NCBI RefSeq assembly: GCF_025949695.1
Contig: NZ_JAPDFL010000001.1
Location: 3,165,501 to 3,229,500 of the forward strand
Direction of reading: 5' to 3'
DNA length: 64,000 nt
Source of the DNA: Pararhodobacter zhoushanensis
Lineage (GTDB): Bacteria; Pseudomonadota; Alphaproteobacteria; Rhodobacterales; Rhodobacteraceae
Positions 18,847-23,964 of the stretch are shown here, one piece after another. Position numbers and translations under genes: made by a program. Below the pieces are notes generated by a model. The model did no database searches, had not been told where the DNA came from, and saw nothing but the letters and a program-made list of their open reading frames with translations. Position 1 is the first letter of the stretch; the number at the start of each line of letters is the position of its first letter.

Positions 18847-19218
18847 GTGGCAGACAAAAAAGTCATATTCATCGCATTTGCAATCGATGACGAGCGTCAG
18901 CGAGATTTCCTTAAGGGCCAGTCACTGTCTCCACGAGCACCGTACGAGTTCATCGATATGTCGGTAAAGCAACCATACGACAAGGAATGGAAGGACCGGG
19001 TGCGGACACGAATTAAACGGTCTCATGGCGTAATTGCGTTGGTCAGTAAGAATTCGTTGAACTCAAGCGGCCAAAAGTGGGAAATTGAGTGCGCTATGGA
19101 AGAAGGCAAACCTATCCGAGGCATTTATGCCTATACAGACGACCGTACCAACGTTGCCGGTGTCGCCACCTACACCTGGACCGACAAAAACATCTCTGAC
19201 TTCATCGATTCCCTTTAG
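18847..19218 (+). CDS. TIR-like (DUF1863) protein, Thoeris ThsB-like
   Basis: A 123-residue single-domain protein from a GTG start (GGAGG upstream). It follows the DUF1863 TIR-like fold: strand KKVIFIAFAIDDE, then PYEFIDMSVKQPYDKEWKDRVR, RIKRSHGVIALVSKNSLNSS, and KWEIECAMEEGKPIRGIYAY (all in part), with the likely catalytic Glu79 in the WEI motif. Such ThsB-type TIRs sense phage and make an NAD-derived nucleotide signal. The caspase-like gene starts 12 bases downstream, so the pair is likely one operon. This matches the TIR plus caspase-like arrangement known as type IV Thoeris, where the TIR product switches on the protease. The exact signal here is unknown. Confidence 0.82.
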   Translation: MADKKVIFIAFAIDDERQRDFLKGQSLSPRAPYEFIDMSVKQPYDKEWKDRVRTRIKRSHGVIALVSKNSLNSSGQKWEIECAMEEGKPIRGIYAYTDDRTNVAGVATYTWTDKNISDFIDSL

Positions 19219-19230
19219 TCAGGTTAATCA

Positions 19231-20231
19231 ATGTCAACGCGCAAGGCAGTGGTCATCGGGATTAATCACTACGATCACCTTCCAATTCTCAGTGGGTGCG
19301 TGAATGATGCACAATCTGTCGCTAGCATTCTAGAGGAGCATTATGATGGGACGTCGAACTTTCTAAAGCCCCACTTGATGGTTGCGGATGGCGCAGCGAC
19401 GGCCATATCGAAGGCCGATATCAAGGATGCGGCACGTGAGTTGTTTGAGGATCAAAGTGAGGTTGCGCTCTTCTACTTCGCTGGCCACGGAGACTTGGAT
19501 GACGAGTCAAGCGGCTATCTGTGCGGTAGTGAATGCAAAGCTGGAGACGACGGTGTTCTTTTGGCTGACATCATGAGGATGGCGACTAAATCTCCCGCAA
19601 TAAACAAGGTCGTAATCTTGGACAGTTGCCACAGTGGGCTTGCCGGTAACCGGGACGGAGTGGACGACGTCGCTGAGATAAAAGAAGGCATGACCGTTCT
19701 TACCGCATCTACCGCGAAGCAGTCTTCTTTCGAGGTAAGGGGGGTGCGGGCGTGTTCACTTCGTTATTTCTTGACGCACTGAATGGCGCAGCAGCCAATC
19801 TCACCGGAGATGTGACGCCAGGAAGCGTTTACGCCCACATTGACCAATCGCTCGGCAATTTTGGTCAGCGCCCGCTTTTCAAGACGAATGTGAGGAGATT
19901 TATCTCCCTTCGCAGGGCGAAGCCGCCGATCGCTCGAGATGAACTGAAGCAACTCGCCACGCATTTCGCGACTCCTGACTATCGTTTCCAACTCGATCCT
20001 TCGTTCGAACCTAAACGTTCCAGCGAAGAGCTTGCTAATCGGAGTATCCCACCTCCTAACCCGACCAATACCGCAATTTTTGGCGTGCTTCAGAATTACG
20101 TTAAAGTGAACTTGGTTAGGCCTGTAGGTACGACACATATGTATGATGCCGCAATGGAATCGAGGTCATGCGAGCTGACCGTTCTCGGACGGCACTACCG
20201 TGACCTAGTGGCTGAGAAACTACTTAGATGA
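19231..20231 (+). pseudogene. Caspase-like protease (peptidase C14 family), one frameshift
   Basis: Two frames join into one 333-residue caspase-like protein. Frame one has the start MSTRKAVVIGINHYDHLPIL, catalytic His86 in FYFAGHG and catalytic Cys133 in VILDSCHSG. It breaks at the G6 tract 19739-19744. One more G there restores EVRGGAGVFTSLFLDALNG and the typical tail (DVTPGSVYAHIDQSLG, RPLFKTNV). The catalytic domain is complete before the break. The break may be a sequencing error, a -1 slip during translation, or a real mutation. With the TIR gene just upstream it looks like the protease effector of a TIR-activated immune system. Its stop overlaps the next gene's ATG (ATGA). Confidence 0.8.
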
Positions 20232-20500
20232 AGAAGGAAGACATAGAGCAACAACTTGTTGAAAGCATTGATATGCTCGCGGCGGTCGAACATCAACGAT
20301 GGGCCCACTGGCAAAACTATCTGCATAGCGAGGGCACAAAGCTTGCGGACGGGTCGCTTATGCTACCACCCGATCTCGTCGCGAGGTGGGAGAAGCAGAT
20401 ACAAACTCCCTTTGAAAAGCTAAGTGATGATGAAAAGGAAAGCGATCGCGAGCAAGTACAGCAGTACATTCCCGCCGTCGCACAAATCTTATCAAACTGA
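20228..20500 (+). CDS. Small RyR-like domain protein
   Basis: A 90-residue acidic protein. EHQRWAHWQNYLHSEG near residue 21 and FEKLSDDEKESDREQVQQYI near residue 62 resemble the RyR domain, a small helical module predicted to bind nucleotides in bacterial conflict systems; similar stand-alone proteins occur in phage and element annotations. Its ATG overlaps the stop of the caspase-like gene, so it is translationally coupled to it. It could help sense or modulate the TIR-made signal, but this is inference. No membrane segment or signal peptide. Confidence 0.6.
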   Translation: MKKEDIEQQLVESIDMLAAVEHQRWAHWQNYLHSEGTKLADGSLMLPPDLVARWEKQIQTPFEKLSDDEKESDREQVQQYIPAVAQILSN

Positions 20501-20576
20501 TGGTTTTCAAGGAAACCAATATAAGGTATGAGAAAGCAGAAATCTTTATGTCGCGGCCAGACACCTCGGAGAGCGG

Positions 20577-21125
20577 ATGAAAGTACCTGTATTTTTAAGT
20601 CGACCAACGCCGCATCTCGAAGCGCAGATTCAGTTCGTGGATGAATTGAAAAGGGAGTTGAGCAATCGTGGGTTCGACCCCCATACGTTAGGCCCTGGTA
20701 GTAGCTATGACTACGACGCCCCCTTAATAGGTATTCGCCGAATTCTTACTCATTGCTGCGGGTTGGTCTCCATAGCATTCCGCCGCACCCACGTGACATC
20801 AGCAACAAAGCATCTTGGTGCGGATACCGCAGGCCGAACTGAGGAACCTTCGAGCGACATTTGGTTCACCAGCCCTTACTGCCAGATCGAGCCCGCAATG
20901 GCCTTCCAACTCGGCCTACCCATCCTGATCCTGCGTGAAGAGGGCGTCCTCGCGGAGGGGGTGCTCGAAAAGGGTGTGACCGGTCTATATTTGCCAGAGT
21001 TCAGTCTCGAAGCTTCCTCTTCCTTCATCACCAGTGACGAATGTCGTCGATTGCTTGATCAGTGGAGCGGGTATGTGCGTACAGTCCATAAACGGCGTGG
21101 TGATCCACCTATGCTATTTACTTAA
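20577..21125 (+). CDS. TIR/SLOG-like protein of the TIR-caspase cassette
   Basis: A 182-residue soluble protein. The start VPVFLSRPTPHLEAQIQFVDELKREL and RGFDPHTLGPG (in part) give a first strand-helix-strand unit. Later PLIGIRRILTHCCGLVSIAFRR and a conserved-looking CQIEPAMAFQLGLPILIL follow, with a Glu placed like the TIR catalytic Glu or a SLOG ligand residue. The fold is therefore predicted TIR- or SLOG-like, with possible nucleotide binding or cleavage. It starts 76 bases after the RyR-like gene in the same direction and probably completes a four-gene cassette. The family name is unsure. It converges on the hydrolase gene 49 bases away. Confidence 0.55.
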   Translation: MKVPVFLSRPTPHLEAQIQFVDELKRELSNRGFDPHTLGPGSSYDYDAPLIGIRRILTHCCGLVSIAFRRTHVTSATKHLGADTAGRTEEPSSDIWFTSPYCQIEPAMAFQLGLPILILREEGVLAEGVLEKGVTGLYLPEFSLEASSSFITSDECRRLLDQWSGYVRTVHKRRGDPPMLFT

Positions 21126-21174: not shown

Positions 21175-22050
21175 CTACAGGATAGCTTCAATGATTGCCT
21201 TTGCAATACGCTCGTCGCTCAAATAGCCTGCAATGCTATGTGGATTTTCCGGCCCATTCTCAACGTCAGAGAAGTTTTCTATATCAGGACCAAAGTCTGC
21301 TACAGCGAGGACAGGACGCAAGGCTACAAAATCCTCAGGATCAGCTGCGTTTACCCATCTCGAGATATCGGCGGGGCGGACTCGTGGCTTAGCAAAACTT
21401 TTTCGAACCACGTCGATTCCGAGTGGTGATCCCAGCGTAAGCCAAAGTGGCGATTGCCGCGGTCTACCGTTCCGAGCAAACTCTCTCAACAGCGCGTATG
21501 AGACAATTGTTCCTAGCGAATGCGAAACAATAATTGCAGGCTCATCATCTTCAAATATTGGGCGAACCTTTTCGTTGACCAAATCGTGTACATGTTGATT
21601 TCGAATGTATGCGTGGGCCTGCCCAAGCACCCGCAAGGCAATTGTTCCCTTGAGAGGTGAGACTTTCTCGATGGTTCTAACAATTGCCTTAAGCCATTTT
21701 TTGTGTGGCCCACTACCCATTGGCACGGTGGTTTCCGCTGCCTCGGCCTCGATCTCCCTTCTAGTGACTCCAATTGTGGTTGCCATTTCCTCCAGTGCAT
21801 CAACGGCAAATTCATCAAAATCATCGCTCGCCGCTTCAGCACCCATCGCGAGGGTCTCCGATTTTAGCCAAGGCGAACTGTTTGAAGCAAGCAAGTCTCC
21901 ATAAAATACCGCCTCGATTCGGCTTAGACGGCCAAGCGGATCGTTACTTTGCTTGGCCAAAGTCGCGCGCAATGGTGCCAGCCATTCATCTAGAATACCC
22001 TTCTCGCTTTTGCCCTCCTGCGAAATTCCGTGAACGAATATCATCCGCAT
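21175..22050 (-). CDS. Alpha/beta-hydrolase (serine esterase/lipase-like), caspase partner
   Basis: A 291-residue protein. It starts MRMIFVHGISQEGKS (strand plus HG oxyanion region) and has the nucleophile elbow SHSLGT with Ser178, followed by WLTLGSPLG, a typical alpha/beta-hydrolase layout. A likely late catalytic His is in NPHSIAGYL. I chose the ATG at 22050 because GGAGG lies 8 bases before it; the upstream TTG would fall in that site. It lies 24 bases after the stop of the second caspase-like gene and is probably co-transcribed with it. A target such as membrane lipid is possible for such hydrolases in defence systems, but unproven. Confidence 0.7.
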   Translation of the reverse strand: MRMIFVHGISQEGKSEKGILDEWLAPLRATLAKQSNDPLGRLSRIEAVFYGDLLASNSSPWLKSETLAMGAEAASDDFDEFAVDALEEMATTIGVTRREIEAEAAETTVPMGSGPHKKWLKAIVRTIEKVSPLKGTIALRVLGQAHAYIRNQHVHDLVNEKVRPIFEDDEPAIIVSHSLGTIVSYALLREFARNGRPRQSPLWLTLGSPLGIDVVRKSFAKPRVRPADISRWVNAADPEDFVALRPVLAVADFGPDIENFSDVENGPENPHSIAGYLSDERIAKAIIEAIL

Positions 22051-22074
22051 AGTGTAGTCCTCCAAGTGGATCGA

Positions 22075-23964
22075 TCATTCGGTGGCTTCGAATGAAAGAA
22101 TGTTTTTTCTGCTGCTGGCTATGCCGGCAAGCGCGAGTAGTGCGTCTCGCCCTTCCCGCTTCACCAAGCTAAATGGTCCCGCGCCAAGGTAAGGCAGTGC
22201 AGACAACGCTAGCGCGCGCCATTCTTCTGCGCTTTCGTGGCAATCAGCGGTTTCAATGGCTCCCCATGCCTGACGCATCCAAGGGACCCGTCCCGCAACT
22301 GGGTGATTAACGACTTCTTTGGTAGCTCTGAAAGTATAGTTTCGCTCGCGCTCAACTTCCGAACGAGCTTCCCTCTCGGGCGTGGCAGGAACGTCGGCGT
22401 ATAGAACACCATCCCTGAAAAACAGACGCCCTCCGCCGAACAAAACGATGTCGAGCGGGATAGGTTGACTGTTTTGCGCATAGAATGCCGCAATGGAGCG
22501 TAAACTCTCGGTATCGCGTATTGAATCGTAGAACTGTGAGGCGACCGCGCCCACTGTTATTACCTCATGTTTTCCCCATCGCAGAAACGCAGCGGCATCA
22601 ACGATCTCGCCTTCGGTGAGCAACCCAGCCTGCATCCTGCCGAGCAGTGCAATAATGTCTCGACCCTCATCTACGGGTGCAAAAAGTTTTCGATGCAGTA
22701 CATTCGTGCTGCCGTTCTCGAAAACATGCATAGCAGTGATAAAGTTCTGAACGATGCAAGCAGAAGAAAAATTTCCGTCGGCGAGCTCAACAACAGTGTC
22801 CGCCCACAATAATGGATCGAGGTCGTTGCTGAGTTTAAGACGATACCAGTTCGGAGGTAAAAAGTCTCGCGTGAGCGATCCCCGTGAAACGCGGACTTCG
22901 CTGATTGCGGCGCCAGTAAAACAAATACCGCAACCAGTCTCGAAATGATCGCGAACGTCGGCATCGGCCGCCGCCGCATAGTCGCGCTCATTTTCAAGAC
23001 GCTTGTCCTCAAGCGCTTCGGCAAGACTGCCTACAAGGGTTTGCTCGGACCGGGCAGTTAGCATTACTCTAGGCACAGTTCTGCCGACTGGTGAACGACC
23101 CTCGTCAAGATCGGTGGATTGAATGAGACGGTCCCTAGCTAATCCGCGCGCTCTTGGTGGCTTTGAGCTAGCTGCCATGCTGGGTTCCGGTAATGAGTAG
23201 TAAATTCGATCGGTGTAGAATCCTGGGCGCGGGCGTGGGTCCATACGCACGCCGTACTTGCCTGCTTCAATTGCCAGATTGTCTTTCAGATACATTGCCA
23301 GCGTCTGACTTGTCACGTGGCGACTGCCATCGATCGTCTCGAAGTATTTCTCGGGGGCATCGCCTTCCAATGCGTCAAGCATTACCTCGGTGAAAAGACA
23401 AAAAGCGTCTTCCTGGCCACTCGCTTTTATCATGAAGGCTTGGCTGCCTGCGTCGACTGGAAAAAAGCGATCGAGTTCGTAATCCCGACGCTCTTCGTCG
23501 GGCTTGTCGAGAACGGGACTACCGACGACCTCGATAAACTTGGCCGAGAATTCTTGGCACGCATCGCCAATAATTGTCACTTGTTCTGGGCCATAGTATT
23601 CAAGCATGCGCTGCAATGAAGAAACCTTCACGGCTTCGGTTGGACGCTTATCCCAGTTGCTAAGCATCCAACTCTGGTCGTCGATGCCAAGGGCAGCACC
23701 ATGACCCGCGAAAAAGATGACTAACCGACGCAGTACTGCTCGACTGGTAACTTCCTCAATTACCTTCGAAATTTCATTGCGCAGCAATTCTGTTGTGACT
23801 TCTGGGAAAACCTTATCGTTAATCAGCAAGGGGATGTACTCGTTGGCTTCGGCCCAAGCTGCCATCCGCTCAGATGCCTTGATCACCCCCGGCAGCGCAC
23901 TGAGGCCGCCGTCGGGCTTAGAGACTGCGATGGACACAAATATACGTTTCGGACTATCAGACAT
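22075..23964 (-). CDS. Caspase-like protease with unknown C-terminal region
   Basis: A 629-residue protein. Residues 1 to about 240 are caspase-like: RIFVSIAVSKPDGGLSALPG start, catalytic His88 in LVIFFAGHGA and catalytic Cys136 in IIGDACQEF, then YLKDNL and a YTDRIYYSLPEP exit. Residues about 290-629 do not resemble any family I know; they include GICFTGAAISEVRVS and end in ILSFEATE. There are no membrane helices. A TCHC or TPR sensor domain, common in other bacterial caspases, is not seen. It is unlike the caspase in the TIR cassette, so the island has two different proteases. It leads a two-gene unit with the alpha/beta-hydrolase downstream. Confidence 0.75.
   Translation of the reverse strand: MSDSPKRIFVSIAVSKPDGGLSALPGVIKASERMAAWAEANEYIPLLINDKVFPEVTTELLRNEISKVIEEVTSRAVLRRLVIFFAGHGAALGIDDQSWMLSNWDKRPTEAVKVSSLQRMLEYYGPEQVTIIGDACQEFSAKFIEVVGSPVLDKPDEERRDYELDRFFPVDAGSQAFMIKASGQEDAFCLFTEVMLDALEGDAPEKYFETIDGSRHVTSQTLAMYLKDNLAIEAGKYGVRMDPRPRPGFYTDRIYYSLPEPSMAASSKPPRARGLARDRLIQSTDLDEGRSPVGRTVPRVMLTARSEQTLVGSLAEALEDKRLENERDYAAAADADVRDHFETGCGICFTGAAISEVRVSRGSLTRDFLPPNWYRLKLSNDLDPLLWADTVVELADGNFSSACIVQNFITAMHVFENGSTNVLHRKLFAPVDEGRDIIALLGRMQAGLLTEGEIVDAAAFLRWGKHEVITVGAVASQFYDSIRDTESLRSIAAFYAQNSQPIPLDIVLFGGGRLFFRDGVLYADVPATPEREARSEVERERNYTFRATKEVVNHPVAGRVPWMRQAWGAIETADCHESAEEWRALALSALPYLGAGPFSLVKREGRDALLALAGIASSRKNILSFEATE

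Follow-up and report, generated by a model that had tools for sequence, protein, structure and literature searches.

We identified a cluster of four genes in the 64,000-nucleotide stretch of DNA analysed here (the window), which we read, at a probability of roughly 0.58, as an antiphage cassette resembling type IV Thoeris, with two additional components: an RyR-domain-like protein that would bind or cleave the signal of the system, and a fourth gene whose product is predicted to adopt a TIR/nucleotide N-glycosidase-like fold. The grouping of TIR, caspase and RyR genes exceeds chance, as it recurs in unrelated bacteria.

The four genes lie on the plus strand between positions 18847 and 21125 of the window, in the order TIR, caspase, RyR-like gene and gene 4, as read from the sequence and its open reading frames. 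The TIR gene (18847..19218, 123 aa, GTG start) is followed after 12 bases by the caspase gene, which is split over two frames (19231..19782, 183 aa, and 19752..20231, 159 aa). At its start, the RyR-like gene (20228..20500, 90 aa) shares four bases, ATGA, with the 3' end of the second caspase frame, and gene 4 (20577..21125, 182 aa) begins after a gap of 76 bases. The shared direction of the four genes and the ATGA coupling of the RyR-like gene had both been described in an earlier sequence-only reading of this DNA and are confirmed here. We infer that the cassette would be expressed as a single transcript; the promoter scan, which was without power, returned one promoter-like site on the opposite strand (3.0 expected), and the terminator scan returned one terminator-like site (4.2 expected), a result that carries no information. 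The GC content of the four genes is 0.49–0.53 and that of the window 0.618, and the low value of the cassette is as expected of transferred DNA.

The cassette is flanked by a DUF736 gene on one side and by a convergent hydrolase/caspase pair on the other, the GC content of which is also low (0.50–0.53). The hydrolase-like gene of this pair (21175..22065, minus strand) has a weak match to Abhydrolase_6. Its neighbour encodes a second caspase-like protein (22075..23964, minus strand) that scores 27 bits with the NCBIfam profile caspase_w_EACC1, below the cut-off, and has relatives on 16 plasmid records, three of them at about 70% identity. The genome itself (G000) contains two more caspase-domain (PF00656) genes, at C1:4069236 and C1:990445.

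The first gene encodes a ThsB-type TIR protein, with matches to ThsB_TIR (PF08937; 35.3 bits, cut-off 21.2) and to the PADLOC ThsB profile PDLC00418 (2.1e-7), and its Glu79 is invariant across 13 aligned TIRs; it is the proposed maker of a cyclic ADP-ribose. The second is a caspase-like protease, which matches Peptidase_C14 (PF00656) at 61.8 bits (cut-off 21.4) and the PADLOC caspase profile at 7.4e-16. The His (GHG) and Cys (DSCHSG) motifs both sit in its N-terminal part, and its C-terminal part, in a different frame, matches the C-terminal half of related proteins (249 bits with the caspase profile). Sequence and alignment place the loss of frame at a run of G near 19739..19744 on the plus strand. 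The sequence-only reading had recognized the TIR-to-caspase design of type IV Thoeris in this pair, and the protein families, the adjacency of the genes and the His and Cys motifs agree with it; the break in the caspase frame had been missed in that reading. A programmed frameshift is not favoured, because internal stops are absent from all 22 aligned annotated caspase relatives (a favourable sample for open frames, being annotated genes) and the full-length caspases of L002, L003, L020 and L067 are single open frames. Owing to this frameshift, the copy of the cassette in the window may be inactive or misread.

The frame break also bears on the whole locus, which could be a dead remnant with a genuine caspase frameshift and decay of the other genes, a reading to which we give nearly even odds. 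Cassette-like loci elsewhere have comparable defects, with only partial caspases in L032 and L042, a caspase match in two pieces in L043 and possibly a similar state in L041, and these partial or split genes hint that loss of the effector recurs. Against decay of the window copy, the catalytic motifs, the TIR, the RyR-like protein and gene 4 are intact and near consensus. Moreover, runs of G are common spots of sequencing error, and a long-read error is possible in this assembly, which comprises only two contigs.

A Pfam search at E 1 returned no family for gene 4. Its predicted fold is TIR/nucleotide N-glycosidase-like, the fold matches being of TIR, N-glycosidase and deoxyribosyltransferase types, among others, and Glu105 is invariant among 57 aligned sequences. 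It differs from DNPH1, the MilB CMP N-glycosidase, nucleoside deoxyribosyltransferases and TIR domains in that structural alignments give 8–18% identity to these proteins and no solved chain was matched by sequence below E 0.9. The profile comparison with the TIR of the cassette was insignificant, and we rejected a sequence relationship between gene 4 and that protein. An earlier assignment as TIR/SLOG-like is retained in its first half, which agrees with the predicted fold, while the SLOG half is unsupported by Pfam and by the fold types seen. The product of gene 4 probably handles nucleotides of the same class as the signal, either as a second eraser or as a second TIR-like enzyme.

A substantial minority possibility is that gene 4 merely adjoins the cassette and is an independent, stand-alone nucleotide N-glycosidase or a single-gene TIR-like defence. 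The gene was found in 2 of 385 genomes of the class, the second at 32% identity, and its relatives at about 50% identity are numerous; the 76-base gap in front of it leaves room for a start of its own. No TIR or caspase profile match lies near gene 4 in 11 of 15 genome loci, four of which (L007, L010, L014 and L015) end at contig ends within about 2.3 kb upstream. Gene 4 does accompany the TIR in some alphaproteobacteria, and its association with the cassette is favoured by the other four genome loci (L002, L003, L013 and L016), where it stands directly beside a cassette-type TIR, and by its position between TIR and caspase in L003 and in the viral contig L020. In the window, L003 and L020, a span of about 3.4 kb holds all four genes, and two pairs of gene 4 and RyR database proteins whose longest contigs have the same length (9535; 7521) are no more than suggestive of the same link. 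The co-occurrence of gene 4 with the first genes of the cassette is thus borne out in four genome loci and one viral contig and fails in the remaining 11.

The third gene is RyR-like by sequence, a relative of the RyR domain that we do not file as RyDEP, the phage protein discussed below. The score of the window copy itself with PF02026 (20.4 bits) lies under the Pfam gathering cut-off of 27.4, and the name that the sequence-only reading had given to it is supported by its relatives. Of 28 relatives, 12 match PF02026 at E 0.001 (best 1.3e-5), and the relative P0128, which is 58% identical, carries a precomputed PF02026 label. Compared with solved chains, the window sequence alone matched no RyR chain; with a profile of the 28 relatives, the top 14 of 17 matches were ryanodine receptors or putative ones, with a best whole-sequence E of 5.2e-4. 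Animal RyR1–3 matched this profile through H..WA and PY..L..EK..DR motifs at whole-sequence E values of 5.2e-4 to 0.016, scores that sum repeats of which the individual stretches are weak. The Foldseek/VIA matches of the protein include no ryanodine receptor entry, which is uninformative for a helical protein of 90 aa, as is a Pfam RyR search for the own genome, which matched no control genome.

With the window RyR as query, we found 21 plasmid records with an RyR match. A caspase lies near the RyR gene in all 16 neighbourhoods examined, in one (L032) only as a remnant, and 13 of them (L023–L030 and L033–L037) contain a contiguous TIR-caspase-RyR array on one strand, among them L025 (Rhizobium etli p42a) and L027 (Bradyrhizobium sp. 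BTAi1). The order in L022 is TIR, caspase, S8 protease, CHAT protein, second TIR and RyR; in L031, two TIR genes run divergently from RyR and caspase; and in L032 a C-terminal caspase remnant adjoins RyR, with a transposase upstream. In the other five records, going by coordinates, a close TIR precedes RyR by about 1 kb in the same orientation. The spacing between caspase and RyR is −4 to 16 bases in 11 annotated cassettes. The recurrence of RyR with the first two genes, on which the proposal of an extended cassette depends, is therefore upheld.

Viewed from the TIR, the association is partial. TIR matches were found on 58 plasmid records, 32 of them at 60% identity or more, and of these 32 close-TIR plasmids 18 carry RyR about 1 kb downstream and 14 lack it. 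These counts are not independent, as the records comprise near-copies (four p42a-like Rhizobium, two S. paucimobilis and nine enterobacterial records at 70.7–71.5%), but their hosts nonetheless span Alphaproteobacteria, Gammaproteobacteria and Actinomycetota. A profile search in six of the 14 (L042–L046 and L050) found no RyR, and RyR is also absent from the more distant TIR loci L047, L048, L049 and L051. Protein-database relatives number 29 for RyR and at least 7989 for the TIR. RyR thus belongs to a subset of these cassettes and is not a required part. Among sampled genomes, each time including the own genome, RyR is present in 1 of 385 of the class and, with an alignment as query, in 2 of 398 of the phylum and 2 of 198 of the family; the cassette TIR was found at E 1e-10 in 3 of 385 class genomes. 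The two other genomes with RyR carry it beside a second TIR (TIR2), in one case also beside TIR and caspase and in the other at a contig end. For RyR, chance grouping was rejected, since RyR and the TIR are each seldom found and nevertheless adjoin.

A tree of 27 caspases, which carries long-branch warnings for L047–L049, places RyR in two separate branches, with rearrangement in one, and the RyR label takes four changes on it, at least two of which are forced by well-supported branches. In the branch formed by L003, L022, L031 and L067, RyR is kept at other positions or on the other strand, and a linkage that survives rearrangement argues for function.

Further genes accompany these loci. TIR2 (about 160 aa, PF13676) recurs with TIR-caspase cassettes whether RyR is present or absent (L022, L024, L027, L031, L035, L043–L045, L047, L049, L003, L020, L067 and L068), including three of the six searched loci without RyR. 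A metallophosphoesterase is annotated just 3' of the cassette in L024, L027, L031, L035 and L036, with PF00149 checked in L024, and the accessory genes of L049 include a sub-threshold YspA-SLOG match. In the divergent TIR-caspase cassettes of L022 and L003, a subtilisin-like S8 protease is encoded directly behind the caspase.

A possible role for RyR is suggested by RyDEP, a phage protein of the PF02026 family. According to the available sections of a 2026 preprint, RyDEP hydrolyses 2'/3'cADPR with a dyad of H75 and D117, and with W78 placed against the adenine (PMC13232231). The same sections describe 2'cADPR and 3'cADPR as exceptionally stable, with no protein known to break them before RyDEP, and report that of eight other phage homologs tested six bound signals and none cleaved them; N7-cADPR is not seen among the ligands in these sections (PMC13232231). 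We aligned 44 rows, comprising 19 from loci whose neighbourhood was examined and 25 database proteins. The columns of RyDEP H75, W78 and D117 are identical in all 44, the H column being the only unselected one among the viral rows, as viral RyR loci were collected by patterns containing the W and D motifs. The phosphate-binding H100 is not conserved: its column holds P in 41 of the 44 rows, and the alignment is gapped there, which is why we call the cassette protein RyR-like only. Scored directly against the cassette RyR profile, RyDEP reached −1.3 bits, which is not significant, and the profile comparison returned a probability of 0.2%. Conserved residues are no proof of catalysis, since the non-RyDEP homologs in the available preprint text did not hydrolyse their ligands. 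Binding of a signal by the cassette RyR is plausible from its residues, and we do not claim cleavage.

Asked whether phages took RyR from cassettes, the tree of RyR proteins places the viral rows in several positions, with mostly weak support. On the IMG/VR contigs L052 and L054–L061, no TIR or caspase match accompanies the RyR relatives in the available DNA, some of them near contig ends; these relatives are candidate phage anti-Thoeris genes.

We propose that upon infection the TIR would convert NAD+ into a cyclic ADP-ribose signal, which is N7-cADPR in the published type IV system, and that this signal would activate the caspase-like protease, leading to degradation of cell proteins and arrest of the phage. 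RyR, encoded directly behind the caspase, would bind or cleave the signal and thereby set the threshold of the system or reset it, as a host-encoded counterpart of the phage glycosidase/sponge RyDEP, and gene 4 would act on the same nucleotides. RyR would thus handle the type IV Thoeris signal, and its phage relatives suggest, by analogy, a brake rather than a helper. A signal-degrading or signal-binding regulator was among the options of the sequence-only reading, and linkage and the RyDEP-aligned residues make it the best-supported account of RyR. More tentatively, TIR-caspase immunity may carry its own RyR eraser or sponge as an off-switch, with phage RyDEPs as counter-weapons and gene 4 as a second handler of the N-glycosidase type. 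Ring nucleases of type III CRISPR are an analogous off-switch, and the N7 linkage of N7-cADPR is an N-glycosidic bond.

The same linkage would also fit a positive partner, in which RyR would serve as a signal-binding subunit that delivers the signal to the caspase, or as a further receptor or effector. Phage homologs bind signals tightly without cleaving them, and in the animal ryanodine receptor this domain serves as a regulatory element of an effector, as far as the available text goes (PMC13232231). We regard this role as unlikely, given that RyR is absent from 14 of the 32 close-TIR plasmids and that the stand-alone phage relatives tested in that text are antagonists. That RyR is a passenger, or counters phage defences rather than tuning the system (for example by lowering the cost of the cassette in plasmid transfer), is improbable: most of the loci seen lie on plasmids, with 11 of 21 RyR records typed as conjugative, and stand-alone RyR genes occur on IMG/VR contigs, but unrelated bacteria preserve both the gene order and the tight spacing, and the second caspase branch retains RyR despite rearrangement.

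That host TIR-caspase cassettes encode a member of the RyDEP domain family suggests bacterial control over such signals, and this control would account for the restraint of a cell-killing protease. One protein of 90 aa and one class of signals offer a simple handle on whether RyR domains generally recognize cADPR-type nucleotides. Were the built-in off-switch true, the nucleotide pocket of the animal ryanodine receptor would share ancestry with a prokaryotic immune domain that handles cADPR.

Type IV Thoeris, reportedly described by Rousset et al. in 2025, is said to consist of a TIR and a caspase-like protease that use N7-cADPR, and comparative-genomics work has reportedly placed RyR domains in prokaryotic conflict systems. 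The available text of PMC12847820 states that N7-cADPR switches on a caspase-like protease and that this enzyme breaks down cell proteins; the system is named type IV Thoeris in PMC13373217. We found no report of RyR genes in TIR-caspase operons among the hits listed in open-access literature; what would be new here is RyR, and gene 4, alongside TIR and caspase, and the two-gene design was already known. The window cassette resembles type IV Thoeris in that the gene for a ThsB-type TIR is immediately followed, on the same strand, by one for a caspase-like protease. It differs in the broken caspase frame of this copy and in the RyR-domain gene directly behind the caspase, followed by gene 4. 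RyDEP is phage-encoded and has 138 aa, whereas the shorter cassette RyR belongs to a bacterial immune cassette; although the two also differ at H100 and lack a significant direct profile match, the cassette protein is likewise of RyR type, and its residues aligned with the H75/D117 dyad and W78 are invariant.
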